This document shows positions 15,825 to 54,933 of a DNA stretch of 64,000 nt, one piece after another. The number at the start of each line of letters is the position of its first letter. The stretch's first letter is position 1. This DNA comes from Arthonia radiata (lineage: Eukaryota; Ascomycota; Arthoniomycetes; Arthoniales; Arthoniaceae), in NCBI GenBank assembly GCA_002989075.1, contig PSQN01000003.1:1298865-1362864 (forward strand), in the 5' to 3' direction. Position numbers and translations under genes: made by a program. The notes beneath the pieces were generated by a model, which was not told the origin of the DNA, did not search any database, and worked only from the letters and a program-made list of their open reading frames with translations.

Positions 15825-16508
15825 ATGCCAGCAGTAAGCAGTTCAATGCCAGTACACATCAACATGGATGCGCCTTCCACGATGAGTTCGCATACAACCA
15901 CAAGCACGATTGCACCCTCCAACGTGATTTCTTCCAGGCTCAAAACCGAGCCGCGGCTTCCAATCGAGCTACTATCCCTCATCGCGATCTTTGGACTTGG
16001 TTTAGCCCTATCTGACTCGATGACTGCCTACAAGAATATCATTCTCGGTCTCGCGACCATCGGTGGCATCTTTGGGAGTGATGTAAAGGCTGCAGCCAGC
16101 ATGCAGAAACGCGAAACTCTTGCCGAGCTTAATGTGTGAACCGTGACTCTCCAGGAGCACCGTAGTAGTATGAAATGCCCCATACACAGACGGCGAAGCT
16201 GGCCACGAGGCGCTCTTACACCGTATTACCCACCTGAGTGTAGGACTTGCGAGAGGACAACGCAGCAAGCTTCAGAGGCATTGGAACGCCACGAAGGTGT
16301 TGTTGAAGCTTGGCAGAGCGTGAAGCAGATCTGGAAAGCCCAGCATCCAGAACTCGCAAGCTCCGGGAAACGCCCCCATGCGAAGCAAGACCCTGAGGCG
16401 GAGCCAGACTCCTCTGAGCAGGCCGCTAAAGCACGACGCATCATTGTCGGGACAAAGCCTGTGGCTGGAGATGGAAGTGAGGCGAGGCGAAAGCGTCGGC
16501 GCGTGTAG
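15825..16508 (+). CDS. array member 1, interrupted by an in-frame TGA
   Basis: From the Met at 15825 the frame gives 104 residues with LPIELLSLIAIFGLGLAL and a segment DVKAAASMQKRETLAEL that matches the same region of member 2. It then meets TGA at 16137-16139. The same frame continues to 16508 and contains ECRTCER, the family's C-x2-C start of the last helix, plus a very basic tail (RRKRRRV). A GT..AG intron of 72 nt (16083-16154) or 105 nt (16134-16238) would remove the stop in frame; the longer one keeps the conserved helix. Otherwise this is a truncated copy or pseudogene. Confidence 0.5.
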
Positions 16509-16680
16509 GACTTTGCCAGATCTTAAGAACACCTCATTGAGCAAGTGCTTGCGAGTAAAATTTGACATGACGTACGGCTCTTCTTTAATCTGCTGTCCAC
16601 CCAGACATCGCAGCAAACTGCACCGATTGTCTACTGCAATCATTGACCGACTCGCACCAGACCATCGCACCAGACTAAAA

Positions 16681-17281
16681 ATGACCGCCATGGCACAGCA
16701 AGCCCTACGACCGCCATCCTCGAAGTTCTACGTCGAGCCTACCACGGAATTCTATACTACCATCGGCAAAGAGCCTCATCTCCCATCAGAGATCCTCATC
16801 CGAGTCGTCTATCAAGCTCTAGATTCTGCACTCCATGATCCCGTCTTTACGTACGCCAACACAGCCCGCCGCCTAGCCAATGTCTGCAGGACGATCAGAG
16901 GCGATGTCAAGCTGCATGTCAATCAGCAACACGACGAAGCAAACAAGACCATAGTCCTCGCGCGCAGAGCTCTAGGCAACCATCACGCGATGTGCCGACA
17001 CATGATGGCAATGTACATGACGCCAGCCAACGGTATCAGAACACTGAGCACGTGTTGCGAAGAGTGTTGCGACGTTCAAGAGGAGGCAGACGAGGCTGAG
17101 AACGTATGTGTTCAATGAGGCGTCACAATACGTTCTGAGAAACAATTGGGCTGACGTCTTTGTCTAGATCATGAGACGTATCTGGTTGGCAAAGGAGACA
17201 CTCGCTGGCATGAAGGTCGCGTCGCATGCGTGCAGAAACGGCTGCCGCGGTACATGCGGACATTATCGCAAGGTGACCTGA
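16681..17281 (+). CDS. array member 2, two exons
   Basis: Exon 1 is 16681-17103 and exon 2 is 17168-17281; the 64-nt intron has GTATGT, a GCTGAC branch-like site and CTAG. The protein is 178 residues. LPSEI is at 34-38, the TARRLANVCRTIRGDV segment at 61-76, a possible H102-x2-C105 pair and C126-x2-C129 within CCEECC. Exon 2 supplies the end of the last helix and a Cys-rich tail (CRNGCRGTCGHYRKVT) not seen in other members. Without splicing the protein would stop right after the C-x2-C helix begins. I infer an intracellular protein of unknown role. Confidence 0.75.
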
Positions 17282-17515
17282 TTGACGATGGTGATCGAAC
17301 TCAGGCCATTTACGATCACCGGGTTCAGCATATGCTTTGCCTCCCAGCTTACCTTATCAGATGAAAAGATGATCCGCGTGGAAAGCGACTCTCTCAAACG
17401 CGCGTTCCTCTAAATCTATCTCTTGACTTCTCGCTCTTGAAAAATCGCAAACCCCTTGAAAGCTTTCTTGATATTCGGCACTCATACCTGCACGAAGGGC
17501 GGCTCGCACGTTACA

Positions 17516-17935
17516 ATGATTGACGCAAATCCCACCCCTGCACTCGGTCTTCGCCTCCCCATCGAGATCATCATCACGATCACTGCCCACTGCCTCAACT
17601 CCGTCTACGACGATCCAGACTCAGGGAATTACTACGTGGTTGCTTCTTGTCTCGCCAAGACATGTCGGTCCATGCGCAACGTCGTCCTGTCTCTGCTACC
17701 ACATCACCTCGAAGGCGCGAGACTGCGACTACTCCAGGCAGACATGGTCAAGACACTTCACTACCAGCCACACGTATGCGCGGATAGGTGGATGAGATTC
17801 AACCGCGGCACTGAGGGAGCTGGCATCAAGGGTAGCACGTGCCGTACATGTGGCATCGTTTGGCGAGACTTGAGAATTGCGAAAGGATTCGTGATGTGGG
17901 TGGAGCTGGCGGTGGAGCGTATTGCACGAGCTTGA
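17516..17935 (+). CDS. array member 3, with H-x5-C and C-x2-C
   Basis: This is a single-exon protein of 139 residues; the start is the Met at 17516, close before LPIEI (14-18). The canonical metal-type residues are all present: H82-x5-C88 and C109-x2-C112 (CRTC), followed by a final helix rich in hydrophobics (WVELAVERIA). A TCTTGACTTC element lies 95 bases upstream (17421-17430), as in several other members. There is no signal peptide or membrane segment. Confidence 0.75.
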   Translation: MIDANPTPALGLRLPIEIIITITAHCLNSVYDDPDSGNYYVVASCLAKTCRSMRNVVLSLLPHHLEGARLRLLQADMVKTLHYQPHVCADRWMRFNRGTEGAGIKGSTCRTCGIVWRDLRIAKGFVMWVELAVERIARA

Positions 17936-18131: not shown

Positions 18132-18566
18132 ATGGCGGTTCAACATGCAACCGCAAAGAAAGCCCCTCCACAACTACCCTTTGAGATCATCTTCGACATC
18201 ACCGATATAGTCCTCAGCTCGGCCTTCAACGATTACAACTCCGCGTCTCCATATCACGTTACCGCCTTCGGCCTCGCCTCCATCCATCCCGCTGTCGCGC
18301 ACCACGTCAGCTCTGTCATTTCACGCCACATCAAAAAGCGCGGATGCGAGATCAGCCACATCATGGCCGCGCAGTGGGAGCATCGCCGTTGCTGCTTCAT
18401 AGCGAGCCAAGAGTGTCCGAGATGCGAATGGTTTCACTGTCGTCTAAACAAGAAGGAGCGTGACGCGGCTGTGAAGAAGGCACAGGATGTCGAATACGCG
18501 GCTTATCTCATCAAGCGAATGCTGGGCGTTGATGCCGGAGATACTTGTGAGATGGAGATTGATTGA
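18132..18566 (+). CDS. array member 4
   Basis: A single-exon protein of 144 residues starts in a good context (AACCATGG). LPFEI is at 15-19, then FDITDIVLSSAFND, a YHVTAFGLASIHPAVAHHV segment and the possible metal set H84-x2-C87 with C95-x2-C98 (CPRC). The gap between the two pairs is much shorter than in most members (seven residues). The last helix (about 105-131) is Lys/Ala-rich. Spacers to members 3 and 5 are about 190 bases each. Confidence 0.75.
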   Translation: MAVQHATAKKAPPQLPFEIIFDITDIVLSSAFNDYNSASPYHVTAFGLASIHPAVAHHVSSVISRHIKKRGCEISHIMAAQWEHRRCCFIASQECPRCEWFHCRLNKKERDAAVKKAQDVEYAAYLIKRMLGVDAGDTCEMEID

Positions 18567-18753: not shown

Positions 18754-19182
18754 ATGGTGTGGAAAGTATGCAGCAACCCTGCTTCTGGACTACGTCTGCC
18801 TCTCAACATCATTCTGAAAATCTTCAGCATAACCCTCTCCACAACTCTCGAGCTCAGACGTGGCCTCGTGTCTACCGTCTACCACCGAAATGCATTCAAC
18901 TTCGCTCTCACATCCAAGATCATGGCCCGGCACGTCAACAAAATGGTGTTGCAGGATGTGCAGCATGCTCGGTCACACAGTAACGAAGCATACCGTGCAC
19001 TGATATCCCACTGTCGCATTTGGAGTAAGTGGCACTACGACAACCCAACCCTAGTGTGCAAAAAGTGCGAGATGCTCGAAGAAGAGAACACAGACGCCAC
19101 GATGCAGCTTGACCACGCGGAGGAAGTCGAGCGAATGTGCAAGCGGTCGCGTCGTTCATTCGTGGGGATCGCCTGGCAGTAG
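18754..19182 (+). CDS. array member 5
   Basis: A single-exon protein of 142 residues. The helix-1 signature is altered to LPLNI (15-19), followed by ILKIFSITLSTTLEL, a YHRNAFNFALTSKIMARHV segment, H86-C87 and C102-x2-C105 (CKKC) leading an acidic helix (EMLEEENTDATMQL). The tail is basic. ATTGACTTCT lies 63 bases upstream of the start and GCTAGTACC further up, so the 5' flank resembles that of other members. Confidence 0.75.
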   Translation: MVWKVCSNPASGLRLPLNIILKIFSITLSTTLELRRGLVSTVYHRNAFNFALTSKIMARHVNKMVLQDVQHARSHSNEAYRALISHCRIWSKWHYDNPTLVCKKCEMLEEENTDATMQLDHAEEVERMCKRSRRSFVGIAWQ

Positions 19183-19457: not shown

Positions 19458-19925
19458 ATGTCCACCAGCACTCTGCAAACTCAACGCCTCCCGAACGAAT
19501 TGATACTCATGATAGCAACATGCGCTCTCAATGTCACCTTCAGCACCAGAATTTCCTCAGAATCAACATTCTACCAGAAAACAGCCATGAGCTTCGGCTC
19601 TGTATCGCGTGGTCTCAACGAGCACGTTCGCAAAGTTGTCGGCCAACATCTAAAGCATGCAAAGCACCTAACAGCACAGAGCTCATTGCATGTCAGACAA
19701 CATCGTGACGAGGGTCAGTTCATATCGAACTATAGGCGTTTTCGCGATGAGCTTAGAAAAAGTACTTTCCATCCGAATTGCCTCCAGTGCCTGTGGTTTG
19801 AGCGCGAGGAAAGTGTTGCTCAAACGGCATTAGTAGAGATTGGCCGTATGGATAGGAAATTGCGTGTGATTGCGTGGGATATGACGCCGGCTGAGGAGTG
19901 GGAGTGGTGTTTTGATGGGGTTTGA
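19458..19925 (+). CDS. array member 6
   Basis: A single-exon protein of 155 residues starting at the Met at 19458 (context CACCATGTCC). LPNEL is at 11-15, then a FYQKTAMSFGSVSRGLNEHV segment, a His-rich central helix (GQHLKHAKHL) and the compact set H105-x2-C108-x2-C111 (HPNCLQC). The C-terminus carries a helix and an acidic, Trp-rich end (EEWEWCFDGV). It is followed by a 23-bp tandem repeat in the spacer before member 7. Confidence 0.73.
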   Translation: MSTSTLQTQRLPNELILMIATCALNVTFSTRISSESTFYQKTAMSFGSVSRGLNEHVRKVVGQHLKHAKHLTAQSSLHVRQHRDEGQFISNYRRFRDELRKSTFHPNCLQCLWFEREESVAQTALVEIGRMDRKLRVIAWDMTPAEEWEWCFDGV

Positions 19926-20168: not shown

Positions 20169-20690
20169 ATGAGCATGTCATCTGCAATGCATGCCAAAGC
20201 GACGCTTACGCCTCAGCTACCTCGAGAAATAATCTTAAACATCATGACCGTGGCGTTGAGTTCCGGTTTCATCGACGCAGCCAAGAGCCGAAAACTTCAA
20301 AATGGTCGCCTGCGGTACTACAAGACAGCACTCACACTGGCTTCGACTTGTACCACCGTACTGAAGACGATCCGTGCTACTGCCAAAGACCAATTGAAAG
20401 AAGTTCAAGCGCACTACGCAACGGCTTGTGCGCATCTGGAAGATCACCAGGCTGATCAATGCGTGAAGTATGTTTCCAGCGGATGTTACTCTCCAAAAGC
20501 CTGCGCTGACTCGAACAATAGCCGTGCATACTACAGATGGGACGCGACTCCTCTGTTACCGTGTCCGACTTGTGAGAGCCACGTCAATCAACAGGGAACG
20601 GCGCGCTCGACGGAGCAGATGATCGGGTTGGTAATTTTCAAATTGGGATTAATTGGCAGGGGAAGAGAGCATTTTGATGACGCCTTATGA
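20169..20690 (+). CDS. array member 7, close pair with member 8
   Basis: A single-exon protein of 173 residues. LPREI is at 17-21, then IILNIMTVALSSGF and a YYKTALTLASTCTTVLKTIR segment nearly the same as in member 8, which marks the two as a recent duplicate pair. Possible metal residues are H93-x4-C98 and C132-x2-C135 (CPTC), with three more Cys between. The last helix (MIGLVIFKLGLIG) is unusually hydrophobic. The 23-bp repeat lies just upstream. Confidence 0.78.
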   Translation: MSMSSAMHAKATLTPQLPREIILNIMTVALSSGFIDAAKSRKLQNGRLRYYKTALTLASTCTTVLKTIRATAKDQLKEVQAHYATACAHLEDHQADQCVKYVSSGCYSPKACADSNNSRAYYRWDATPLLPCPTCESHVNQQGTARSTEQMIGLVIFKLGLIGRGREHFDDAL

Positions 20691-20966: not shown

Positions 20967-21479
20967 ATGTCATCAACAACCCCCGCAAAACCCTCCTCCA
21001 CGCCTCGGCTCCCCCAAGAAATCATCCTCCAAATCATGACCGAAGCCCTCGACAACATGCTCAGCACCGCTCAATCCCGCAAATACCGCATCAGCCGCGT
21101 CGCATACTACAAAGCAGCGTTCACACTCGCCTCGACCTGCAAGACCGCTCTACAAACAGTCCGCGCGATCGTCAAGCGCCACCTCGAAGAAGTCAGAGCC
21201 GCTGAGACGAAGGCAACCGAGGAGAAGGAGCGTCACAAGAGCGGCTCAGCATGCAAGAGCATCACAGTGGCTTCGCACGCTCAACAGAATGCCCCCGGGC
21301 CTTTCTCTGTGGATGACAGACTTCTTCGCGCTATGTGTAGCTTGGGATTTTGTCAGTGGTGTAGTGGTTTTGATCAGAGGTGCGCTGGTGCGAGGGCGAT
21401 GGTGTTGATGGTGGAGAAGGTGGATTGCAAGCTCGCAAGGATTGGGGAGAGGGAGGAACATGTCGATGGGTCTCCATGA
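20967..21479 (+). CDS. array member 8, canonical H-x5-C and C-x2-C
   Basis: A single-exon protein of 170 residues; the start at 20967 (CAAGATGTC) gives a short N-terminus like other members, rather than an upstream frame that begins without ATG in good context. LPQEI is at 15-19, YYKAAFTLASTCKTALQTVR follows, then H90-x5-C96 and C129-x2-C132 (CQWC). The last helix (ARAMVLMVEKVDCKLARIG) is well formed. Similarity to member 7 is the strongest of any neighbours in this part of the array. Confidence 0.8.
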   Translation: MSSTTPAKPSSTPRLPQEIILQIMTEALDNMLSTAQSRKYRISRVAYYKAAFTLASTCKTALQTVRAIVKRHLEEVRAAETKATEEKERHKSGSACKSITVASHAQQNAPGPFSVDDRLLRAMCSLGFCQWCSGFDQRCAGARAMVLMVEKVDCKLARIGEREEHVDGSP

Positions 21480-21699: not shown

Positions 21700-22222
21700 A
21701 TGCCAGTCACAATGCAAGTCATCCTTCTGAACCCCATCAGTTCGTACCCGGTTCGGCGCGAACAGTCCAAAATCACCCCGCAACTACCCATCGAGGTGGT
21801 CATCCAGATCCTGACTAGCGCTCTCGACGTCGCGCTTGAAGACTCTACGCGCGTTACCATCATCGACGGGCATTTCGACTATTTCAGAACAGCCTTCGCC
21901 ACCAGTATGACCGCGAAGATCATGCTACCAATAGTCCGCGCGACAGTCAACCGTCACTTCGAGGAGATGCAAGCTACACACATGGAGGTCGCTCAAGAGA
22001 AACGACTCCACCTGCAGAGCAATACGTGCACTAGTGGCAGCTCGTGGAGATGGAAGTCTTGTAGGTTTGTGATGGTCTGCTGAGGTGATATCGCTGACCA
22101 AATCGTCAGACTGCGGACGGTGCAAGGAGCTGGTTCTGGAGGATGATAATAAGAAACGCACGGCGGATGCAACGGCTCTTCTTGATTCTAAGATGTGGAA
22201 TCTCGGACGGTTCGTGGGATAG
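21700..22222 (+). CDS. array member 9, two exons
   Basis: Exon 1 is 21700-22060 and exon 2 is 22110-22222; the 49-nt intron runs GTAGGT..GTCAG with a CGCTGACC branch-like site and joins in phase 1, giving 157 residues. Unspliced, the frame ends at 127 residues and loses the C-x2-C. After splicing all canonical residues are present: LPIEV at 29-33, H104-x5-C110 and C122-x2-C125 (CGRC), followed by KELVLEDDNKK and the last helix. TCTTGACTTC lies 28 bases before the start. The restored motif is strong support for the intron. Confidence 0.78.
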
Positions 22223-22468: not shown

Positions 22469-23038
22469 ATGACCACGACCATCGAACACCCAGACCACGC
22501 CAGTAGGTCTAAGACCAAGCCACAACTCCCCACCGAGACCATCCTCGATATCGTCGCCCTCACCATCGAAGCCGCCTTCGAGAACGTGCTCCGATACCAG
22601 AATATTCGCAGTATCAACGAATATTCAACAACTGCAATCAACATCGCAGCAATCTCCAAGACTATTCTTCATGATTTCATCCTCACGATCCACGCCCACA
22701 TCATGGTCGCTCAAGCCGCCCACGCAGAAGTCTCTCAGACACTGGCGAGCCATGTACAGGCCAACGTGTCTTTCCACGAGTTACGGCGCCTGTCACGTCG
22801 TGCTCCTCCAAGGACTACTATTCAAGTCTTAGGCCAGGCCAATGCGAATGACTTGGCTAATGCTATTTCGGCCTTCAGCCGGGCTCTTGGAGCATGTCGA
22901 CAATGTGATGAGCTGGAGGAGAAGGAGCTGCATTTGCGGAGAGTCGTTGAGGCGTTGACTCGAGGCGTTGGGGCTTTAGAATATGTCGAGGACAGAATCA
23001 CGCGTCTGGATGATGCCGAGCAGCGCGGAGATGCGTAG
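22469..23038 (+). CDS. array member 10
   Basis: A single-exon protein of 189 residues from the Met at 22469. Helix 1 is LPTET (20-24) followed by ILDIVALTIEAAFEN; a STTAINIAAISKTILHDFIL segment follows. The usual H-x5-C is missing (SHVQANVSFHEL has no Cys), while C143-x2-C146 (CRQC) and the following ELEEKELHLRRVVEAL helix are intact. The gap before C-x2-C is longer than usual and Ala/Arg-rich. Confidence 0.75.
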   Translation: MTTTIEHPDHASRSKTKPQLPTETILDIVALTIEAAFENVLRYQNIRSINEYSTTAINIAAISKTILHDFILTIHAHIMVAQAAHAEVSQTLASHVQANVSFHELRRLSRRAPPRTTIQVLGQANANDLANAISAFSRALGACRQCDELEEKELHLRRVVEALTRGVGALEYVEDRITRLDDAEQRGDA

Positions 23039-23279: not shown

Positions 23280-23840
23280 ATGGCTTCAGCCAAAAACGCG
23301 CCAGCCAAAGGCACACCTGCCAAAAACAAACCTGTCAAAAGCAGGCCAGTCAAAGGCAAGTCAACGAAAGCAATGCCGGAACTTCCGCTCGAGATCATCC
23401 GTCAAATTTTTGCCATAGCCGTTGATCAAGCATTTTATGACGAATCTGACCCCCGCAATAAGCCGGGAGTTTATCTCAAGATCGTCACTGGCCTCGCGTC
23501 GACATGCAAAAGCATGACGGCGCTTGTGCGCCCAAGGCTCGACGGCCACTACAATGAAGCACAGTCCACGCACAAGAAGCTAGATCGAGACCATATCATA
23601 CACCGAAATCGCCAGAGACCGAGCAATAATGTTGATGAATGGGGTCGCCCAACTTTCAGACAACACCGCAAGAGACTTCATGGCTCGTTGTATTTTCATT
23701 ATCCAGGAAACACCACCGCAAACGACATGCTCCGATGGTGTCCTCATTGTGAGGATCTCAATTCTAGAGACAATCGAGCCATCCTCGTTCTTGACGGGAT
23801 CTCACGCGCTCGTCGTGCACTGTTCTCGGTTGAGATCTAG
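23280..23840 (+). CDS. array member 11, with Lys-rich N-terminal repeats
   Basis: A single-exon protein of 186 residues starting at 23280 (GAAAATGGCT). Residues 4-30 are a run of short units of the type P-A/V-K-x (APAKGTPAKNKPVKSRPVK) not seen in other members and possibly a nuclear or nucleic-acid contacting tail. LPLEI is at 35-39, LKIVTGLASTCKSMTALV follows. The middle is His-rich (DHIIHRNRQRP) but lacks the H-x5-C; C154-x2-C157 (CPHC) is present. TCTTGACTTC lies 69 bases upstream. Confidence 0.77.
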   Translation: MASAKNAPAKGTPAKNKPVKSRPVKGKSTKAMPELPLEIIRQIFAIAVDQAFYDESDPRNKPGVYLKIVTGLASTCKSMTALVRPRLDGHYNEAQSTHKKLDRDHIIHRNRQRPSNNVDEWGRPTFRQHRKRLHGSLYFHYPGNTTANDMLRWCPHCEDLNSRDNRAILVLDGISRARRALFSVEI

Positions 23841-24108: not shown

Positions 24109-24747
24109 ATGGCACATCCTACACAAACCCTTCACCACAACCAAAACATCAACAAACAAAAAGCAAAACCCAAACCACAGCTCTCCACCGACCTCATCCT
24201 CCAGATAATCAACATCGCCGTCGACGACGCGCTAGACGACACCCTCTCCGCCCCCGAGCGCACCGTATTCCGCACGCACAAAACCTGCGCTCAAGCCATC
24301 TCAGCCCTAGCCCGCACATCAGAGCTCATACTCCGTCATATCTACGTCACAATCCAATGCAGACATCGAACCATCGAGCCAGTCCTGAAACAGAGTCTTA
24401 AGGACTTTTCCGAGCATCAGCTGGCCTGCGACATGGATCAATGGGACCAAGTGTTTGCGGGTCTGCCCTTGACGAAGTGTGAGGAGTGCGAGCGACTGCA
24501 GACGGATAATGAGGGGATGGCGCTTGCGCAGAGTTTGAACGAGAGCCTTGAGAGGGAGGTGTGGTGGCTTGGGTGTAGTATGGGGCTGTCGCCTTTGCGG
24601 GATGGGGCTTATTATGATATGCTGATTAGTCTTGAAGACGCTGCGAAAGCGGTGGCGGCGATGAGGCGGATGGGACGGGCTGGATGGCTTGGTCAAACTC
24701 GGTCTCCGGTGAGCCCGACACCTGATCGATTCTTTTGGTGCGGTTAG
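24109..24747 (+). CDS. array member 12, extended C-terminus
   Basis: A single-exon protein of 212 residues from the Met at 24109. Helix 1 is degenerate (LSTDL at 25-29, then ILQIINIAVDDALDD). The AQAISALARTSELILRHI segment follows, then H103-x3-C107 and C124-x2-C127 (CEEC). The C-terminal 80 residues after the C-x2-C helix are longer than in most members and include a second Ala-rich helix (LEDAAKAVAAMRRMG). Codon use turns G-rich near the end, so the true end could differ if an intron were present. Confidence 0.72.
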   Translation: MAHPTQTLHHNQNINKQKAKPKPQLSTDLILQIINIAVDDALDDTLSAPERTVFRTHKTCAQAISALARTSELILRHIYVTIQCRHRTIEPVLKQSLKDFSEHQLACDMDQWDQVFAGLPLTKCEECERLQTDNEGMALAQSLNESLEREVWWLGCSMGLSPLRDGAYYDMLISLEDAAKAVAAMRRMGRAGWLGQTRSPVSPTPDRFFWCG

Positions 24748-25090: not shown

Positions 25091-25513
25091 ATGGATCCTC
25101 TTAAGGACACAAATCCGAAGGAAAAGCCACAGCTGCCACTGGAGATCATCCTACAAATCGCAACAATCACCATTGACATAGCGCTGGATGCCGCTCTTGC
25201 CGCTACCGGTCGGTCTGCAGCACGCAAGCGATATGCCCACATAGTCCGAAACCTGGCTTTGGCCTTGGAGCCGCTCTTCAACCACGTGCTGTCAGAGGTC
25301 TCCAAGAAGCGCGAACTCGCAATGAGCAAGCTACGAGAGCTCAACGGCAAGCAGGATTATTTGGGGTGGTGCCTGAATCCGCACTGGAAAGGCTGTGAGC
25401 CTTATGGGGAGGAGTATGGGAAAGCCATGAGGATCTTCGACTTCAACAAGTGTGCTGGTGAGGGGTTGCAGACGCTCGGGACAAGAAGGGAACGACTTCG
25501 GGATATGGATTGA
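25091..25513 (+). CDS. array member 13, metal residues degenerate
   Basis: A single-exon protein of 140 residues from the Met at 25091 (CGCAATGGAT). LPLEI is at 15-19, followed by ILQIATITIDIALDAAL and YAHIVRNLALALEPLFNHV, so the N-terminal half is typical. The C-terminal half has Cys at 94, 102 and 121 and His at 98 but no C-x2-C, so the proposed site is lost or rearranged. It is one of the shortest members and may be decaying. The spacer after it (about 750 bases) is the longest in the array. Confidence 0.7.
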   Translation: MDPLKDTNPKEKPQLPLEIILQIATITIDIALDAALAATGRSAARKRYAHIVRNLALALEPLFNHVLSEVSKKRELAMSKLRELNGKQDYLGWCLNPHWKGCEPYGEEYGKAMRIFDFNKCAGEGLQTLGTRRERLRDMD

Positions 25514-26264: not shown

Positions 26265-26744
26265 ATGGATCCACCAGCCACCAAGCGCACTCCGGCAGGC
26301 CATCGGATCCCTCTCGAGATCATCCTCCAAATCATAACCGACGCAGCTAAGTCCGCTTTTGACGACTACGTGTGGCCAAGAGAAAGGCCTGCCTACAAAA
26401 ATGCCGGATTTCTGGCTTTTCACACGTTGATGAAGCCCATGCCCGGATCGACGGCCAAAGGTTATCTACATCGCATCAGTAACCTCTCCACCATCTCTCT
26501 CCGCATCAGGAAACATGTTGTGGAGGTAGTCTCAGCGCACATTGCCTACTTTGACGCGAAGTGCATTGGAGCTTACAGAGCGCATACGATGCACCGTCTT
26601 TATGACTGCGGCCGCTCTTCGCTTTGGTCTCCGCCTGACCACTGCATGGCGTGCGGGAAGCTCGTAGAGGACGCAGAATACTGGAAGAAGGTAGTTGCTG
26701 ATCTCGAGAACATTCTCAAGAAAGTCGGCTTCAACCGAACGTAA
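26265..26744 (+). CDS. array member 14
   Basis: A single-exon protein of 159 residues; the Met at 26265 (CAACATGGAT) is the first ATG of the frame. Helix 1 reads IPLEI (15-19) then ILQIITDAAKSAFDD. A longer insert than in early members follows before LHRISNLSTISLRIRKHV. H110-x4-C115 and C127-x2-C130 (CMAC) are present, followed by the helix KLVEDAEYWKKVVADLENIL. From here on the members have longer loops after helix 1. Confidence 0.76.
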   Translation: MDPPATKRTPAGHRIPLEIILQIITDAAKSAFDDYVWPRERPAYKNAGFLAFHTLMKPMPGSTAKGYLHRISNLSTISLRIRKHVVEVVSAHIAYFDAKCIGAYRAHTMHRLYDCGRSSLWSPPDHCMACGKLVEDAEYWKKVVADLENILKKVGFNRT

Positions 26745-26956: not shown

Positions 26957-27431
26957 ATGCCACTCGAGCTCATCCTCGAGTTCATCACAGCCGCTATGAC
27001 GTCTGCTTTCGAACAGTCAAAAACACCCGAAAATCTGATCCCGCACGAACTTCGAGACGTGATGGTGATGCTGGACAGTATTCCTTACCAGCCGCCGCCA
27101 GCAACACCTCAACAGAACGAATACATCAGAACCCTCTATCGTCTTAGCAGCATCTCTCAGATTATCAATTCTCACGTCAAGTCCGTTGCTCAGCTGCACC
27201 TCAAAGAGGCAAAAAAATATGAGTGCAGAAACTCGCAGACTGCTGCAACAACATCAACACACGATCATATATTCGGTCAGGGCTCCGGGAGGCGGCTTGA
27301 TGCGTCAAGAAAAAAAGGATTCAGGGCCATGTTGCAAAGAACACATGGATAGGGTCCAGCAGTGCGAGTTGATACAGTGTGGATTAGAGGACATCGTTGA
27401 AGCTGTTCTTCCAGGCCAGGAGAGCGAATGA
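26957..27431 (+). pseudogene. array member 15, frameshifted copy
   Basis: Helix 1 (MPLEL then ILEFITAAMTSAFEQ) begins at the first in-frame ATG, 26957, so the usual residues before it are missing or lie in a non-ATG frame. The frame reads through LYRLSSISQIINSHVKSV and the central helix, then leaves the family pattern and stops at 27352. Another frame, open from 27186 to 27431, continues the pattern with GPCCKEHMDRVQQCELIQ, close to the CCKPY end of member 19. A run of seven A at 27211-27217 lies exactly where the switch is expected. This is either a pseudogene or a sequencing slip. It is closest to member 16. Confidence 0.55.
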
Positions 27432-27524: not shown

Positions 27525-27525
27525 C

Positions 27526-27635: not shown

Positions 27636-28154
27636 ATGAATGTTCAAGCACGAAGACAACTCTCCGCCGCACACCGGATGCCGCTCGAACTGATTATCGA
27701 GATCATCACTATTGCGTTGACGTCCGCATTCGGGCACGCCAAACCCTCCAAAAACATCGTTCACGGTAGAGACCCTTACGCAATCTCCAAGTCTGGACGT
27801 CCGTCATACGCCAAGTCTCGCATCAAAGACTACGTCGACCTGGCCTGGCGTCTCGCCGCCGTCTCTACAGCTCTGAAAGATCACGTCGAGACCGTGGTTC
27901 ACAGCCAGCTGATTGAAGCAAACGAAAGGGCCTCAAAAGCTCGTATGAAGCTGCAACGGCAGCTCACAGCTCTTGATACTTTGGAAGTTCTCACCTATGC
28001 CAATGGAGACTTATCGAAGGTGCCGCTCTGCGGAAAAGAGTTCAAAGAGTTCGACCACTGTAGAATGTTGCAGAGAGGTGCAGTGGATGTTCTGAGGATG
28101 ATCTCTTGCGACAGGGTGTTGGAGCGCTGCTCCATTGCCAGCGGAAGTGCATGA
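27636..28154 (+). CDS. array member 16
   Basis: A single-exon protein of 172 residues starting at 27636. Helix 1 is MPLEL (15-19) followed by IIEIITIALTSAFGH, very like member 15. A 30-residue loop, YVDLAWRLAAVSTALKDHV and a long charged helix (ANERASKARMKLQRQL) follow. The C-x2-C is replaced by CGKEFKEFDHC, so two cysteines remain but with wider spacing and a His beside the second. The last helix (AVDVLRMISCDRVLERC) is present. Confidence 0.75.
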   Translation: MNVQARRQLSAAHRMPLELIIEIITIALTSAFGHAKPSKNIVHGRDPYAISKSGRPSYAKSRIKDYVDLAWRLAAVSTALKDHVETVVHSQLIEANERASKARMKLQRQLTALDTLEVLTYANGDLSKVPLCGKEFKEFDHCRMLQRGAVDVLRMISCDRVLERCSIASGSA

Positions 28155-28346: not shown

Positions 28347-28877
28347 ATGAGTTTCCAAGCATCCAAACCAGCGCCAGCCAGCCATCATCTGCCACCCGAG
28401 ATCATCGACAATATCCTCAAGCTCTCACTGCTCTCCATGATCGAACACGTAGAATCGTTCGCTTTCTCAGACCCGAATGCCGACAAGCTTTTCTTACACG
28501 CAACGTTGTCGCAGAAGGACTACTACAACCACGCCATCAAACTTGCGCATCTGGCGCCACGCATCCAGATCAACATCACTCGACTGTGTGCGCAGCACCT
28601 CGAATCTTCGCAAAAGACCCGAGAGGAAGCTGTAGAGGCAGTTGGGAATCACTTGGGCACATTGTATGAGCACACAATCTATGAAGCTGGGCGCGCAGTC
28701 CGGCGGGAATGCTGTGTTCAGCTCTTGTGGCTGTCGAGTCTTCATCAGATGGTGCACAATAACGTTCAGCGAATTATGAAGGCGGTTTCCGGACCATTGA
28801 TCATTCGCGAAGAGTACGATGATGCCGTTGAGATTGGGTGCGGCTGTCTTGAGCACATGTGCGGTAGAGCGCCGTAA
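28347..28877 (+). CDS. array member 17
   Basis: A single-exon protein of 176 residues from the Met at 28347 (CGCAATGAGT). LPPEI is at 15-19 followed by IDNILKLSLLSMIEHVE; YYNHAIKLAHLAPRIQINI follows. The C-terminal cysteines are reduced to an adjacent pair (RRECCVQLLW) before the helix MVHNNVQRIMKAV, and extra Cys sit at the very end (GCGCLEHMCGRAP). No H-x5-C is present, although His residues lie near the expected place (NHLGTLYEH). Confidence 0.72.
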   Translation: MSFQASKPAPASHHLPPEIIDNILKLSLLSMIEHVESFAFSDPNADKLFLHATLSQKDYYNHAIKLAHLAPRIQINITRLCAQHLESSQKTREEAVEAVGNHLGTLYEHTIYEAGRAVRRECCVQLLWLSSLHQMVHNNVQRIMKAVSGPLIIREEYDDAVEIGCGCLEHMCGRAP

Positions 28878-29107: not shown

Positions 29108-29734
29108 ATGAAAAAGCAGATAGTCTCCACACAATCTTCGCTACGTCTTCAACTTCCGCCCGAACTTGTCCTCCGCATCATCAAGACCACCCTATCATCC
29201 GCATTCGAGAAAATTGAGCAGCCACTAGAGCCCAATGAAGCTTCAGCTGCCTACGATAACCCGTCTCGAGAATGGCTCGAGCAGCAGCGTGCGAATTCGT
29301 CGATCCGCGAATATGTCCAATCAGCTCGAAACCTGACCTTACTCTCTGAAGACTTCAAGAGACTTGTCCGGCTCGTGATCGGAGAAGATCTCGCCAAAAT
29401 CAAGCAGAAGTCGAAGCGAGCGCACGGGGCTCTCGGCCAGCATTTGGTCCAGGATGAGTATCTTCAATATTGGACAGGTTCAGCTTTTATTAAACTTTCG
29501 CTGGAGAGACATCAACGCTGCAATGAGCTTGTCGCCAGGGTTGATCGTTGCGATGTGATGCAAAATGCCATTGAGACTGCTCTCATTCAGATCGGGTGTC
29601 TGAAGACATGGCACAACACGCTGCCTGCAGACGGGATCGAGAATAAGGAGTTGCGAAGCGCCACTGCACCTCGTGCTTCAGAGGTGCGAGACGTGCGCGA
29701 GCTCCGAGAAGCAGTCACAGCAAACAACGCGTGA
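29108..29734 (+). CDS. array member 18
   Basis: A single-exon protein of 208 residues starting at 29108. LPPEL is at 16-20 followed by VLRIIKTTLSSAFEK. A long loop precedes YVQSARNLTLLSEDFKRLV and a Lys-rich helix. The metal residues are mostly lost: HQRCNEL keeps one Cys of the pair and RCDVMQ adds another. The last helix (NAIETALIQIGCL) is intact, then a 40-residue charged tail rich in Arg/Glu follows. It is likely a true gene with a diverged C-terminal site. Confidence 0.72.
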   Translation: MKKQIVSTQSSLRLQLPPELVLRIIKTTLSSAFEKIEQPLEPNEASAAYDNPSREWLEQQRANSSIREYVQSARNLTLLSEDFKRLVRLVIGEDLAKIKQKSKRAHGALGQHLVQDEYLQYWTGSAFIKLSLERHQRCNELVARVDRCDVMQNAIETALIQIGCLKTWHNTLPADGIENKELRSATAPRASEVRDVRELREAVTANNA

Positions 29735-29923
29735 CGCGTCCAAAGCTATCACCTTACCTCGTTTCACCTTTTTGTACCTACGTAGTTACTCAGTGAAAGA
29801 CATGTCAGAGGTTTGGCTTTGTCACCTCAGCTTCTTATTCCTCTGCTTATGAGAACATACAACTCAAGTCTTTCGCACTTCAACAACCCGCAACCCCGCA
29901 AAGAGCAACAACCACTACCAAAA

Positions 29924-31963: not shown

Positions 31964-32067
31964 GCTAGGGTGATTTTCGTCACTTCAGTCCCGCCGGCCG
32001 TGAAGTGTGGCGCACAGGGTGGGCTTGTATCGGCTGGGGTTACCTCTACGAAAGCTGCGCAATGATA

Positions 32068-43170: not shown

Positions 43171-44162
43171 GACGATGGCGGATGAAGGTGATTTGGTCTT
43201 AAGGGATGTGGTGCACAGCTGATATATGTCTGGGCGGTCGACCTCAGTAGAATTGTGGGCTTTATGTAGGGTTTGCGGTGAGGTTTGGTGCTGAGAAGTC
43301 TCCCGAACAGAGAGACAGAGAGGGAGAGCCGAAGTTGTACAGGTTAGCTGCAAACGGCTTATTTCGAGGTGCGTTTGGAGGTGCAAGCAGTGAGGTGGCT
43401 GCGGTTGTCCACCTTTAATAGATTGGCTATGATGCTGGGTCATCTGAAGCGCGTCCTAGCCCAATATAGATACGGAGCCGTACGATGATGCTCAAGGAAG
43501 ACCGCTTGACAAGATACGAGTAGTCCTCAAAAGAGCATCTCCACGATTCTCAAGGCGCCACAGAGAACTCGGCCATGACTGTGCGTATCGTTTGCACATC
43601 GTGATTTCCGGCGAGTTCGCACCACCAGCGATACTCAAGAGTCAACACCGGCCATGCCCGCCTTTGAACATCAGCTCACAAGCTCCAGGACGTGTGCATC
43701 TACCAGGAAGATCACCTTGATCCCTGAGAGAAACTATTTGTTTCATCTTCAAGACATTGATTACGAGCTTGGATCTTGAATGATCCTACCTATATCAGGT
43801 GAAGGTCACAAGTGCTTTGAGAAAATTGAATAGCAACAGCCGCAAGAACGGGTTGCGTAAGATCAGGTGAGTATGTCAGCTCAGTGCAGTCAATGATCAA
43901 GCTTCACAAGAAAGGCTTTCGTACCTCAGAAGCTGTCTTTGCCTCTTGCAATCTACATCTAATCTCACTACCTCCGCAGCGACTCATTAAAAAGTTTGAA
44001 GACTTGCGAGGCGTGATCCGCAGCACCTGAAGACATTCCGAAGCTAATCAAAGTTCCTTTGAGGACAAATCGTAGAGCGGTCTAGACGCAATAGCGGCGG
44101 CTTCAACCTTCTCGTAGCCACGACCACTCCTTGCCTTGTCAGCAGGACCACAAACGGCAATA
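43171..44162. other. intergenic, no supported gene
   Basis: Nearly 1 kb without a supported gene or array-like remnant on either strand. It includes the promoter of the 65-residue protein gene and the upstream flank of member 30. Confidence 0.45.
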
Positions 44163-44773
44163 ATGTCGTATGAAGACAACTTGCAGCGCTGGCTTGCTGC
44201 CTCTGCCGAGATTCCCAGCAAGCGCCAGAAGCTCAAAGAGTCCATTTCGATTCCTCAAGAGATCATCAACCGCATTGTCGCCTACGCGAGGGCATCGGCA
44301 AGACGAGAGTCTGTCCAGAATCCGGCAGCAACAGCAGGTCAGACGCCAAGAAGTACACTGTCGTACATCCGAGGACCTCGAGAGTAACGTTCAAGGCCGA
44401 CGAGTATCGCAAAGACCAGCGTCTAGCAATCATCGCAGAATGCATGCCAAAATGCCGGAACCTCGCCGCTGTCAACCCTGAAACTACCTACACAGTGCGC
44501 ACAGAGCTAGCAAAGCACGAAGCTACCTTGAAGGCACTGGTCCAGGAATGTCAAGAGCGCAAGTTGCATCCATCATCGCCCGGAGGAAAGCTCAGCTCCA
44601 ATGAGAAATGGAGCATTGAGGAGCAACGCAAGGACGCGAGAGACGTTGGGTATGCCCTGCGAGACTATAGAAACCGACTCTTGAGGCTGGGAAAGAAGGG
44701 CATTGGCGCAGGCCTGACGAAGGTTGAGAAGAAAAGGCGTCTCCTGAAAGCCGCTCAATCCAAAACGAAGTAG
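44163..44773 (+). pseudogene. array member 30 (subfamily B), one-base frameshift
   Basis: The Met at 44163 opens MSYEDNLQRWLAASAEIPSK, then IPQEI-INRIVAYARASARR, the helix-1 signature. Around 44338-44345 (GCAGGTCAGACG) the family pattern moves to another frame, which reads KYTVVHPRTSRVTF, then CRNLAAVNPETTYTVRTEL, matching CRNIALVNFEASYVARKEL in member 31. The end RNRLLRLGKKGIGAGLTKVE corresponds to LRRLAKKGVGKPLLKSES there. One extra base would join the halves, so this is a frameshifted copy or a sequencing slip. No intron of usable length explains it. Confidence 0.6.
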
Positions 44774-47543: not shown

Positions 47544-48290
47544 ATGGCGACGCCATCGCTCGCACAGCATAAAATATCGCTCTCGCACAAGCCAAACGTC
47601 AAGAGTGAGAAACCCGAGATCATCTCGATCATCTTGAAGCTGGCAGTGGCAGCTGCGATCCCAGACTGCACTGGACCAACTCTCGAAGGCATCGACAAGA
47701 ACAGAGACGAGTGGGAGTTTATATCTTACGCCCGCTTCTTCGACATATTGGGCAGTTACTGGGAGCTCTCCGGGTACCCGAGGCAGGAAATGGCCTGGAG
47801 AAGCGTGAAGGGCTGTCGCAACATCGCCCTCGTCAACTTTGAGGCCAGCTACGTCGCACGAAAAGAATTGCTATCGCGGATCCTCAAGCTCAAAGAGCGG
47901 GCTCAAGACTGCCGACATCAATGTCTTAGACTGATCGCTCTCACACAAACCAGATCCGAGCAAACCAGGGAGGCAGCGCGTGAGTTCTTGCATCACTATG
48001 ATTATCTGCGAGAGCTGGAGACTCCTTTGGCGAACTATTTGCGAGGCTTGCGGCGGCTAGCAAAGAAGGGTGTTGGAAAGCCGCTCTTGAAAAGCGAGTC
48101 GAGGATGCCGTTTCCCGTTCTGAAGTTGAAGAAGTGGTGGAAGACGTGGCCGGAGATCCTGCGGAGACGACGAGCTGACGAGGAGGAGCGGAAAGCTGCA
48201 AGGCACGAAGGACTAATGGAGGATGTCAGTGATGCACTTCATGCCACTGATGGGCTTGAGGATGATTTTATTTTCAAGGGGGGTTGCTAG
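47544..48290 (+). CDS. array member 31 (subfamily B)
   Basis: A single-exon protein of 248 residues from 47544 (CATAATGGCG). Helix 1 is KPEIISIILKLAVAAAIPD, without the first Leu-Pro. WRSVKGCRNIALVNFEASYV follows, where the main group has LA.vS..LR.HV. There is no C-x2-C. Instead the C-terminal part carries LETPLANYLRGLRRLAKKGV and GKPLLKSESRMPFPVLKLKK, almost the same as in member 32, then a charged tail. Subfamily B thus keeps the N-terminal part but has a different C-terminal module. Confidence 0.77.
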   Translation: MATPSLAQHKISLSHKPNVKSEKPEIISIILKLAVAAAIPDCTGPTLEGIDKNRDEWEFISYARFFDILGSYWELSGYPRQEMAWRSVKGCRNIALVNFEASYVARKELLSRILKLKERAQDCRHQCLRLIALTQTRSEQTREAAREFLHHYDYLRELETPLANYLRGLRRLAKKGVGKPLLKSESRMPFPVLKLKKWWKTWPEILRRRRADEEERKAARHEGLMEDVSDALHATDGLEDDFIFKGGC

Positions 48291-48537: not shown

Positions 48538-49215
48538 ATGGCCAACACCTCAGCATCCAACAAAGGCAAAGGCAAATCCAAGCAACCCCCCGAGCTCCCA
48601 CGAGAGCTGGTCATCAAAATCCTCGAGTTCGCCGTCGAGCACGCCGTCCCAAACATCATCGCCCCCACAACCGAAGGAACGCTCTTCGAAGGCCAAATCC
48701 GTCCCTACAATGGCATCCCATACGCCCACCGCCGCCTCACAGCCATCGCCGCCGTCAAACCCTGCCGTAACATCGCCAAAGTGAGCGTCGAAGCCAACAC
48801 GATCGTGCGCCGAAAGCTGCCAAAGCAGATCGTCCTGCTGCACGACTGCGCAAAGGAGAACCGCCAGTACAAGATCCAGGCGAAGCCGGTCCCGAAGCCC
48901 AAGCGCCGCACGAAAGCCCAGGTCAGCCTCGAGCACCAGCTGGACTTGCATTATGACTGGTTGAAGGAGATGGAGGCGCCGCTGGCGAACTACCTCCGAG
49001 GACTGCGCTGTTTGGCTAGAAACAAGGTCGGGAGGCCGCTCTTGAAATCTGAGTCCAAGATGCCGATCCTGGTGTTGAGTCTAAGGGATTGGTGGGATAA
49101 TTGGGATGGATTTGAGCTGATGTATCTGGGTTGGAATGAGGCCGAGCGCAACCAGGTGTTCGTTGATGAGGAGTTGGTCAGCGACCTGCAGATCTCAGAG
49201 GGAGTCGAGATCTGA
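48538..49215 (+). CDS. array member 32 (subfamily B)
   Basis: A single-exon protein of 225 residues from 48538 (AAAATGGCC). A Lys-rich start (NKGKGKSKQPPE) precedes LPRELVIKILEFAVEHAVPN, a clear helix 1. VKPCRNIAKVSVEANTIVRR and MEAPLANYLRGLRCLARNKV follow, with GRPLLKSESKMPILVLSLRD, closely matching member 31; the two are a recent pair. The end is acidic (FVDEELVSDLQISEGVEI). It has neither signal peptide nor metal-type Cys set. Confidence 0.78.
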   Translation: MANTSASNKGKGKSKQPPELPRELVIKILEFAVEHAVPNIIAPTTEGTLFEGQIRPYNGIPYAHRRLTAIAAVKPCRNIAKVSVEANTIVRRKLPKQIVLLHDCAKENRQYKIQAKPVPKPKRRTKAQVSLEHQLDLHYDWLKEMEAPLANYLRGLRCLARNKVGRPLLKSESKMPILVLSLRDWWDNWDGFELMYLGWNEAERNQVFVDEELVSDLQISEGVEI

Positions 49216-49637
49216 TAAGATGGAATCTGAGACGGCGGCGTGGCCCCAAATACGGCCAGGACGCGTCCTCAATCAATAGGTGCGCCAGCTGCGAAATAGG
49301 ATGCAGTTCCGCACTTCGTGGTGCTTGATAGGCCAAAATACCGCTCCTTCTCTCATTCGCTCTCTGGTTCCTTGCGTAACAGATCTGCCATCAACCCGTA
49401 CGCAAAGCGATCTCCTGCAAACTTTTATCGAGGGCATTTCACCTTGGGGCTGCTGCCTAATACCTGTGGGGAATGTGCTTGCGGGCTGATGCTCTTTTTC
49501 GTTCTGCGTTTTCTAGAATTTCTCCATTTTCCTTCCAAAATCAAGCATCGCACTACCTTGAGCCTCAAATCAGCCATTTCCAGTTGCAGTACATCTCAGC
49601 CTTTCCCACCTTGTCAGTTCAAGACTAACGACAACAG
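49216..49637. other. upstream flank of member 33
   Basis: The stretch is CT-rich from about 49.49 kb and contains TTCCAAAATCAAG where other members have TTCCAAAATG, so the usual start codon may be mutated. A branch-like ACTAACG and a GACAACAG acceptor lie just before 49638. Confidence 0.4.
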
Positions 49638-50155
49638 ACACGGATATTTCCTCGCCAACGGCGCCCAAGCCGCATGCGCAGCGCGCTAAGCGCAAGAACC
49701 TATCGACGCTTCCTTTGGAGATTGTATCGCAGATATTCGAGCACGTCATGGACAGCACATTGCCCGCGGAGCCGGGTAAGGAGCTGCTCAAATCGCGCAT
49801 GCGGAAAGTTGGCGTGGCCCAGCGAGCGATTCACAACCTTGCTTCAATGAATTCAAGCATAGCCTTCGCAGTCCGTCAGAAGTTGGACAGGCTTATTGCT
49901 GGTCTGAAGCATCGTCCGCGAGCCTTACACACAGAGCATAGCCAAGAATATGAGACAGACTTCGTGCTCAATTGCCGCTTGCATCTGGCAAGGGACCATG
50001 TCTCATTTGTCAACACTCTAGAGCGTAGCGCCAATCGATTCAAAAGGCTTGCAGTCAAAGGTGTTGGCGTCCCACTCACGACTGAAGAACAGAAGATCCT
50101 GGCGGAGGCTGATGCGAAAAATCGCCTTGTGCTAGACACATCGCAATTGCAGTAG
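49638..50155 (+). CDS. array member 33 (subfamily B), 5' end uncertain
   Basis: The frame encodes SPTAPKPHAQRAKRKNLST, then LPLEIVSQIFEHVMDSTLP, then AIHNLASMNSSIAFAVRQKL and a C-terminal RFKRLAVKGVGVPLTTEEQK that corresponds to the RLAKKGVGKPLLKSE module of members 31 and 32. The cysteines of the main group are absent. No ATG precedes helix 1 in this frame. A short upstream exon joined at the acceptor ending 49637 is likely; one option starts at 49489. If no such exon exists, the copy has lost its start. Confidence 0.6.
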
Positions 50156-50515: not shown

Positions 50516-52245
<1,730 letters not shown>

Positions 52246-53061: not shown

Positions 53062-53438
53062 ATGCCGTCCAGCTAGATGGCCGACTACTCGAGCGGTTAT
53101 ATAGCCAATGAATCACCTTCTAAAAAGTCAAGAACGCTTTTCAATGCTTCGCTGATCAGGATACAGTCAGCAACTGTATGCTTACCGCGTTCGTGATGTA
53201 TAATACCCTGTTGCATCATAATTGCATCGGATATGCCAGTGGCTCTTCTGAGCACTTCTCGGCATCGTCCAAAAGTCCAAGGCTACGACTCTGCCATACT
53301 CTACTTTCTGCCAGTGCAAATTGACAGAATGAAGGTTCCTCGCCATATACCTCTTGTAACACACAGTCGAGTCAACGCTGCAAAGCGCTCTAAACTCATG
53401 CTAAGGACGAACCCCCTGCGACGTCCTCGCAGCCTGTA
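53062..53438. other. spacer after the esterase gene
   Basis: 377 bases: the 3' flank of the esterase gene and the leader of member 34. No gene is supported. Confidence 0.45.
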
Positions 53439-54056
53439 ATGATGTCCAAGCCGACGCTTCTTCAGAAACTGCCAAACGAGATCATCAACCTGATCGTCTT
53501 TCGACGTCTGGAAATGAATCTAGTAGAGGAAGAGCGCTTGATGTACTGCCTTCTCGAGCGCGAACTCCATACCTATGAGCGCAACGTCACAACCTTAGCC
53601 GGCGTCTCGCGGGCAACACACGATGAAGTGATGCACATCGTGAGCCAACACTTAGCCACAGCAACGAAAGAAGCAGCCCATGCCCAACATTCACCGCCGC
53701 TTCGGCGAAAACCGAGATCCCATTCAGGGTATCAAGAAAGGTTCATGCGTTCTCGTCCAGAGAATGTCTGGGCGATCGCGAGCGCGCGGGCGTTTGCGCT
53801 CGGAAGAATCTGGACCAAGATGCTCACGGCTCGTTGGGTCGCACTATATCCGCGACCACAGAATTCTCGTGGAGGCTCCTGGAAGATCACCATACGGAAA
53901 CGCCGGCAGGCTAGGCAGCGGCAAAAGCAGCTCTTGCAATCGAGGGGCTGGTGCTTTGACGAACGAAAGTATCGGTGGCGACCTCTGCCTGAACGGTCGG
54001 AGAGTATCGTCATCTTGGTGCAAGGGGGGAAGTTCAGATTAACACGGCGAGAGTAG
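53439..54056 (+). CDS. array member 34 (subfamily C)
   Basis: A single-exon protein of 205 residues starting at 53439 (or the next Met at 53442). LPNEI is at residues 11-15, followed by INLIVFRRLEMNLVEEERL; YERNVTTLAGVSRATHDEV matches the LA.vS..LR.HV segment. After the central helix the family pattern fades; the C-terminal half is basic (KRRQARQRQKQLLQSRGW) and lacks C-x2-C. It shares LPNEI and the length of its helix-1 region with member 35. The second half could be altered by a frame change, because another frame is also open there. Confidence 0.62.
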   Translation: MMSKPTLLQKLPNEIINLIVFRRLEMNLVEEERLMYCLLERELHTYERNVTTLAGVSRATHDEVMHIVSQHLATATKEAAHAQHSPPLRRKPRSHSGYQERFMRSRPENVWAIASARAFALGRIWTKMLTARWVALYPRPQNSRGGSWKITIRKRRQARQRQKQLLQSRGWCFDERKYRWRPLPERSESIVILVQGGKFRLTRRE

Positions 54057-54360
54057 TCATGCGCCTCCTGTCCATCAATGTCGCTAGAGTCTTTGGCGTC
54101 TCAGGCGCCATTTCTGCTTAACGTCCGCATATGCGACGCTGAAATTATAAAAAGATTTGTTGGAGCGCCTCTATGCAACGTGCGCATTGAAACCCGTTTG
54201 ACGTCTGCAGCGTCAGGGTTGCCCCTTCCTAATCTCCAACTGCTTGTCAGAGCGTGCTTCGGGTGCTTCGACTTTCCTGTTCTGCCACAAACCCTGTCAA
54301 TCAGTACTCGCAGTCTTATCAGACACTCATCTGCGAGTTTCTTGCAGCATAATCTTGACC
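54057..54360. other. spacer between members 34 and 35
   Basis: 304 bases with a CT-rich end that reads like a leader (CTTCGACTTTCCTGTTCTGC). No gene is supported; the frame of member 35 is open through part of it without a convincing start. Confidence 0.45.
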
Positions 54361-54933
54361 ATGGATACCACGAAATCGATCCCACGGCAGTTTAGCCTTT
54401 TATCAATTCGGTCTACACCAAAAAGACAGAAACTCCCAAACGAGATCCTCTTCATGGTCCTCAATTACCGCCTCGAAGCCGACACGAAGCAGCCAGGATA
54501 TCTCCTGAGCTACCAACGCACCGCCATCGATCTCGCCAACATCTGCAAGGCTTTCCGCCACGAAGTCGAAAAGATCGTCCCTGTCCACATCGAAGTCGAA
54601 AAGCTGAGGAGAGAACGACATCTAGCCGAAGAGTCACGTCAAATGAACTGTGTATCTGACAAAAACGATGCCGCGATATACTTTGCACAATACATGGCTG
54701 GTATGGCCCGTGAACGAGAGAATAACCTGCGCGTACTTCAGAAAAGGCTGTCGGAGTTCGCTGGGGACGCCACTTTTCCGCAATTCGCCATTGCTGAAGC
54801 TACTCCTACCGATTTGGGTTCGGAAGCACGCGCGAACGACTCGAAGAAAGTCGCCACTGGGGAACCCGTTCGGCGCGCCCGAAGAAGGAGAGCACACAGG
54901 AGGCGAAAGGTTTTGGCCTCTGATGTTCACTAG
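54361..54933 (+). CDS. array member 35 (subfamily C), last relative
   Basis: A single-exon protein of 190 residues from the Met at 54361 (GACCATGGAT). LPNEI is at 25-29, followed by LFMVLNYRLEADTKQ; YQRTAIDLANICKAFRHEV matches the second conserved segment. A long charged helix (EVEKLRRERHLAEESRQ) follows. There is a single Cys (MNCVSDK) and no C-x2-C. The C-terminus is strongly basic (RRARRRRAHRRRK), a likely nuclear localisation signal. The housekeeping block begins 425 bases downstream. Confidence 0.72.
   Translation: MDTTKSIPRQFSLLSIRSTPKRQKLPNEILFMVLNYRLEADTKQPGYLLSYQRTAIDLANICKAFRHEVEKIVPVHIEVEKLRRERHLAEESRQMNCVSDKNDAAIYFAQYMAGMARERENNLRVLQKRLSEFAGDATFPQFAIAEATPTDLGSEARANDSKKVATGEPVRRARRRRAHRRRKVLASDVH

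Follow-up and report, generated by a model that had tools for sequence, protein, structure and literature searches.

The gene array in the window

The DNA analysed here is a stretch of 64,000 bases from the lichen-forming fungus Arthonia radiata (contig PSQN01000003.1), called the window below. It contains, on one strand, a run of small, very different genes, whose products are read in what follows as probable F-box-like adaptors. The run comprises 29 non-overlapping plus-strand reading frames (15,825-38,981), is unbroken, and aligns as one family, with a mean column identity of 15% and nearly invariant E and Y residues. Each family member is largely contained in one open frame, and the median gap between genes is 268 bases, calculated with the start of member 2 taken 6 bases off. 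The iterated family profile finds 29/29 members at E <= 1.7e-6, all of them being part of its training set. A preliminary description of this DNA gave a member length of 140-260 residues, which has to be widened to open frames of 104 to 261 residues. The LPxEI helix that it ascribed to all members is not universal, since LSTDL, ILFEL, MPLEL and LPLNI occur among the window members.

Some gene models were corrected. Members 1 (15,825) and 9 (21,700) are shortened, with a C-terminal piece past a stop or in another frame. The true start of member 24 is probably upstream of 34,081, because this sole in-frame ATG sits within the LPMEL motif. The preliminary description counted 35 genes, adding six downstream relatives to the 29. 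Four of the six were recovered at E <= 2.7e-15, the gene at 47.5 kb is a pairwise relative of the 48.5 kb gene, and the copy at 44.1-44.8 kb is weak and frame-split. As a single 35-gene object the array does not stand, because its relatives form further groups, on five contigs in all. In the list below, members were placed by the family profile and, unless a line names its evidence, also by the alignment.

15825..16139, plus strand: member 1, truncated, weak C-terminal piece after the stop (16140-16505); family profile
16681..17118, plus strand: member 2; frame open from 16378
17516..17935, plus strand: member 3
18132..18566, plus strand: member 4
18754..19182, plus strand: member 5
19458..19925, plus strand: member 6
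20169..20690, plus strand: member 7; forms the closest pair with member 8
20967..21479, plus strand: member 8; structure predicted (alignment, model, family profile)
21700..22083, plus strand: member 9, frame cut, C-terminal part continuing in another frame; family profile
22469..23038, plus strand: member 10
23280..23840, plus strand: member 11; weak F-box-like_2 match, N-terminal domain modelled (Pfam, model, family profile)
24109..24747, plus strand: member 12; frame open from 23962
25091..25513, plus strand: member 13; frame open from 25004
26265..26744, plus strand: member 14
26957..27352, plus strand: member 15; without the C-x2-C part
27636..28154, plus strand: member 16
28347..28877, plus strand: member 17
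29108..29734, plus strand: member 18
29849..30418, plus strand: member 19
30692..31201, plus strand: member 20
31487..31963, plus strand: member 21
32062..32742, plus strand: member 22
33011..33577, plus strand: member 23
34081..34569, plus strand: member 24; sole in-frame ATG within the LPMEL motif; family profile
34832..35428, plus strand: member 25
35669..36235, plus strand: member 26
36549..37085, plus strand: member 27; frame open from 36426
37333..38112, plus strand: member 28; weak F-box match, PF00646 E 0.28 (Pfam, alignment, family profile)
38463..38981, plus strand: member 29; frame open from 38256
44118..44773, plus strand: possible relative, weak, split over two frames (family profile E 0.67 and 0.053)
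47544..48290, plus strand: relative of the 48.5 kb gene (pairwise 40% identity, E 1.5e-26)
48538..49215, plus strand: significant relative (family profile E 2.7e-15)
49601..50155, plus strand: significant relative, frame open upstream of the first ATG at 49748 (family profile E 2.7e-15)
53439..54056, plus strand: significant relative (family profile E 1.3e-16)
54361..54933, plus strand: significant relative (family profile E 8e-16)

A divergent family spread over several arrays

The published Arthonia radiata assembly comprises 33.5 Mb in 17 scaffolds, with a scaffold N50 of 2.25 Mb (PMC5887037), and the genome searched here comprised 33,499,693 bases in 16 contigs, reading outside the window being limited to stretches near matches. 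A profile built from the 29 window members alone retrieved 54 of 1,544 frames (40 residues or more) from other stretches of the genome at E <= 1e-4; with these frames reversed it retrieved 0. This out-of-window search is the independent test of the family, because the 29 window members were in the training set of the iterated profile. The latter retrieved 101 frames at E <= 1e-4 on five contigs, 33 on C9 (the contig of the window), 20 on C2, 13 on C3, 31 on C16 and 4 on C10. The frames on C16 comprise 25 on the plus strand at 231.6-268.2 kb and 6 on the minus strand, in two groups near 985-990 kb and 1,292-1,295 kb, and every group keeps to one strand except that on C10 (2 plus, 2 minus). Because the genome was partially read and a few frames are fragments, 101 is an estimate, and the family is put at about 100 small, very different genes, mostly in tandem arrays. 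A further frame, L019:3-533 on the minus strand, adjoins a canonical F-box gene and carries LPREIRDRILDDVLTSAV (family profile E 0.0036); it is possibly a stray family member or belongs to another LPxEI family.

In each of the four arrays tested, neighbouring genes resemble each other more than they do when the gene order is shuffled, the observed neighbour mean being reached by 0 (C9), 5 (C2), 5 (C3) and 1 (C16) of 2,000 shuffled orders each. A tree was built from 98 of the 99 domain rows, a length of at least 50 residues being required. On this tree array labels switch 22 times, where shuffling gives a mean of 58 (minimum 51 of 200). The closest of all aligned pairs is only 44% identical. 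Each array therefore expanded mostly in place, either long ago or with rapid change. The repeated tandem duplication and strong divergence proposed in the preliminary description are thus borne out for the window array, where neighbours are more alike than in any of the 2,000 shuffled orders.

The members look like old, maintained tandem duplicates. Six-frame searches reading through stops returned 62 rows, in which some places recur; no row is interrupted by a stop, although local matches favour intact stretches, and a random 140-codon frame would stay open with a probability of 0.002. An A at position -3 is found at 19 of the 29 window starts (using the corrected start of member 2), compared with 29% of 377 other ATGs in the region. 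Codon positions were compared in four neighbouring pairs, and here the third position is the most variable and the second the least. Synonymous divergence (dS) in these pairs was 1.3, 2.8, 3.5 and in one case not computable, and because synonymous sites are saturated, no claim of selection for diversity is made from the ratio of nonsynonymous to synonymous divergence (dN/dS). No common upstream motif was found in the window array, the top 7-mer occurring in 6/29 upstream regions (again with member 2 taken 6 bases off), a count that shuffled sequences also reach (mean 4.65, maximum 7 of 100).

The front domain, its F-box resemblance and the readings it allows

The full-length model of member 8 (predicted local distance difference test score, pLDDT, 87; predicted template modelling score, pTM, 0.78) contains predicted helices at residues 17-37, 41-55 and 59-92, followed by short helices in a region of lower certainty and finally by a long helix at 130-167. 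In the window array, pairwise identity falls from 35% in helix 1 and 28% in helix 2 to 16% in helix 3; it is 19% in the tip and 15% in the last helix. The insert that joins helices 1 and 2 has the lowest identity (10%) and ranges in length from 1 to 38 residues. C-x2-C, which the preliminary description gave for most members, occurs in 18/29 window members (500 shuffles: mean 2.4, maximum 7), and the longer pattern H-x3-8-C...C-x2-C in 13/29 (shuffles: mean 0.8, maximum 5). Among the other arrays, C-x2-C is found in 14/20 members on C2 and 2/3 of the small C16 group, and is absent from C3 (0/12), the large C16 array (0/19) and C10 (0/2). Since C3 and the large C16 array do without C-x2-C, it is the front domain and not the metal-site-like part that forms the conserved unit; all arrays have this domain in common, and the back half varies from array to array.

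Zipper-like spacing near the C-terminus is found in 7/19 members of the large C16 array and 5/12 of C3, compared with 1/29 of C9 and 3/20 of C2. In the large C16 array, L044:2649-3236 and others end in zipper-like coiled coils instead of the C-x2-C tip; the TSC22-like Pfam match of L044:2649-3236 (E 7e-5) is under the cut-off and was set aside, as was a Holin_2-3 match (PF13272, E 4.5e-5) in one outside member. With a secreted, effector-like family in mind, 85 members were screened for hydropathy (the 29 in the window and 56 outside frames at E <= 1e-8, with starts outside the window set by script at the nearest ATG before the domain). Twelve have a hydrophobic stretch among their first 40 residues, which on inspection by eye is often the LPxEI helix itself.

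The conserved front end matches the F-box profile in two separate pieces, ordered and in register. Helix 1, of the pattern LPxE-hydrophobic with an I eight residues on (L in 96%, P in 96%, E in 93% and I in 93% of 98 members), scores 27.6 against the F-box in hhalign (null maximum 12.5). The segment comprising helix 2, the V[SC] turn and helix 3 scores 14.8, with null maxima of 9.1 for permuted, 9.5 for reversed and 8.8 for helical decoys. A three-helix front end is predicted, with a helix break at VS/VC in both models (member 8 and the N-terminal domain of member 11), and one weak structural match lands on the F-box of FBXO42. The genome contains a single Skp1 gene, as far as was found. The preliminary description could name no family for these genes, but the LPxEI...I helix and the LA.vS..LR.HV segment that it singled out are together organised like an F-box that carries a variable insert.

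Several results weigh against this assignment. No F-box gathering cut-off (PF00646, PF12937 or PF13013) is reached, the best F-box-clan match being E 0.022 among the 29 window members and E 0.045 (14.2 of 21.6 bits) among the outside members, for which the best 25 of 61 families were considered. The F-box tryptophan is missing from the family, and Foldseek of the front domain lists no chain named F-box. Among 947 frames at 30 F-box loci (30 of the 65 F-box places in the genome, 18 of them in the alignment of canonical places), the best match of the family profile is not an F-box gene but a neighbouring frame (in L019, E 0.0036). Lastly, DUF3420 (PF11900) matches helix 1 more strongly in one outside member. 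It matches 6/54 outside members, the best listed being L061:1939-2460 (E 2.6e-4, 21.5 bits, cut-off 24.9); L062:8358-9416 and L068:2-727 were excluded from this 54-row scan and scanned individually. Because of the missing tryptophan, the lack of an F-box chain in Foldseek, the best match beside and not in an F-box gene, and the DUF3420 matches, the family is labelled F-box-like, presumed to work like an F-box adaptor, and not a member of PF00646.

The reading favoured here, with somewhat more belief than doubt, is that these genes encode lineage-specific, tandemly expanded small adaptors, presumably intracellular, whose three N-terminal helices are a degenerate F-box, the module that couples proteins to the cell's degradation machinery. 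LPxE-I-x3-I lies in helix 1, followed by the insert of variable length, a helix 2 ending in LA-x-V-S/C, a turn, and a helix 3 standing where the F-box has its 'VSrrW' helix. In the window array, the predicted helix 3 is long and is succeeded by the last long helix, and many members have a Cys/His cluster between the two (C-x2-C, frequently preceded by H-x3-8-C). The F-box-like front would dock on the single Skp1 of a Skp1-cullin-F-box (SCF) ubiquitin ligase, and the fast-changing, array-specific parts (insert, long helices and Cys/His tip) would bind targets and present them for ubiquitination. The putative activities thus include Skp1 binding, zinc binding and substrate recognition, with a possible role against many changing target proteins, for which recognition of foreign or selfish proteins would be the natural reading. 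'Substrate adaptors' was among the functions listed in the preliminary description, which ranged more widely. A more far-reaching proposal, which is distinctly doubtful, is an SCF-coupled intracellular repertoire of about 100 or more F-box-like receptors that destroys foreign or selfish proteins and diversifies by tandem duplication; its targets may be viral, transposon-derived, toxin-antidote or from incompatible mycelia. If true, it would be the equivalent, in a fungus, of the F-box expansions seen in nematodes and plants.

The alternative to be taken most seriously, though it is rather unlikely, is that the proteins form a small helical family of a new kind, in which the LPxE helix cap arose by convergence and which is unconnected with ubiquitin ligases, for example a metal-stapled protein-interaction module. 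Such a family would account for the Pfam result, in which 20 families were found for the 29 window members, none better than E 0.013 (no curated domain match that carries weight), for the Foldseek search with the full model of member 8 (0/638 matches at E <= 0.001), and for the excess of H-x3-8-C...C-x2-C. It would leave unexplained two F-box-matching segments that are ordered, in register and above permuted, reversed and helical decoys, and a metal module fits poorly with the arrays on C3 and C16 that lack C-x2-C altogether. The DUF3420 matches raise another explanation, in which the front end would be a helix region of the BACK/DUF3420 kind and the proteins shortened relatives of Cul3 (BTB-type) adaptors. 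This is improbable: where alignments are given (five members), the match is confined to helix 1 (at most profile positions 10-33 of 47) and stays below the cut-off, DUF3420 is missing from the 20 families found for the 29 window members, the second half of the front end matches F-box helices 2-3, and no BTB domain is among the families listed for the 29 window members or two sets of ten outside members.

Slightly less probable again is that F-box-like proteins compete for Skp1 as decoys or selfish elements, delivering no substrate. The proteins are indeed very short, with no WD40 or LRR substrate domain among the matches listed, but most of their variation lies behind the front domain, where binders would be expected to vary, and some 100 different decoys would presumably be redundant. 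Least of all is to be said for the view that the genes are neutral leftovers of old duplications whose frames are open by chance. The low identity, the truncation of 2/29 window members and one further frame-split copy point in this direction; the stop-free rows (with their bias towards intact stretches), the small chance of an open frame, the start context and the excess of third-position differences, all given above, make it very improbable.

Homologue searches, surrounding genes and known systems

Searched against about 5.8 billion proteins, the 29-row alignment gave 0 of 8,000 scored candidates at E <= 0.1, and member 8 alone 0 of 45 at E <= 1. The Rpn3 protein encoded in the flank, used as a control query, gave 3,647 matches among 8,000 scored, and since many carry fungal names, the database covers fungi; distant relatives can escape the search, because it requires shared 5-residue words. 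Solved structures, searched by sequence, gave two 'Tet4 Variant' chains (E 0.002), which were rejected because they cover one helix only and no single stretch passes.

Ordinary genes occupy the flanks and the gaps between the relatives, and no RNA genes were found within the window:

9.7-11.7 kb: protein with C2H2 zinc-finger matches just under the cut-off
50953-51288, minus strand: piece of a GH11 (glycosyl hydrolase 11) xylanase
52246-52644, plus strand: piece of a cutinase
55.4 kb: ankyrin repeats
56.8 kb: Rpn3 gene
60 kb: TFIID 20 kDa (TAF12-type) subunit

The xylanase and cutinase pieces, probably exons of intron-bearing genes, are flanked by the relatives at 49.6 and 53.4 kb. A Pro/Ser/Thr-rich low-complexity open frame without a Pfam match (41732-42286) lies in the gap that separates the two parts of the array. 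The top named match of the Rpn3 protein is from Coniocarpon cinnabarinum (92%); an 84% identical entry filed under the tree Carpinus fangiana looks like fungal contamination of a plant assembly.

The open-access literature searched yielded no account of a fungus with a tandem repertoire of F-box-like genes. Fungi differ in F-box numbers (PMC3828140, PMC4469406), and the accessible portions of three fungal genome papers contain F-box counts or mentions and no array of such a kind (PMC3828140, PMC4469406, PMC6409746), while 'F-box' does not occur in the accessible portions of two papers on Arthonia radiata (PMC9232553, PMC7765829). About 100 genes missed by curated F-box models would correspond to about 1.5% of the 6,931 annotated Arthonia radiata genes (PMC5887037). 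If the favoured reading is true, the family offers those who study fungi and lichens a specific candidate for a recognition system that can be put to the test, and suggests that F-box-like adaptors can hide under domain cut-offs.

The canonical F-box proteins of the same genome (PF00646, compared at 30 of 65 places) share with the family the LPxE-[IL] helix 1 and the V-S/C before the third helix, but lack a long insert between helices 1 and 2, commonly have an aromatic residue after VSrr, and are found in arrays at 0/65 places. In canonical F-box structures, the first helix is shorter than in the fungal array family. DUF3420 resembles the family in its LPxE-type helix, but the fungal match extends to helix 1 only where an alignment is listed, and no BTB or ankyrin part is listed; DUF3420 is presumably a region of NPR1-like BTB-ankyrin plant proteins, with the helix motif II-D-x-R.

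Closest in kind are the clustered nematode F-box families and the KSS/KSL proteins. The KSS/KSL F-box-like proteins of Caenorhabditis tropicalis, which are toxin antidotes, are likewise fast-evolving, largely species-specific and clustered, with a canonical F-box recognisable in only some relatives and otherwise visible by structure, not by sequence (PMC12680543). KSS has a C-terminal solenoid, whereas the fungal window frames have about 100-260 residues, with long predicted helices behind the front domain. For KSS, a complex with the Skp1-related SKR-1 and toxin degradation through SCF were reported (PMC12680543); for the fungal family, Skp1 binding is putative. The Caenorhabditis F-box families also show massive species-specific tandem duplication and rapid divergence even within the F-box region (PMC8665587); their genes are catalogued as F-box homologs with varying exon structures, whereas the fungal genes lie under F-box cut-offs and are largely contained in one open frame each. 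Tandem-expanded F-box repertoires are known from nematodes and plants, are used by toxin-antidote elements, and have been proposed to have an immunity-like role (PMC12680543, PMC8665587).

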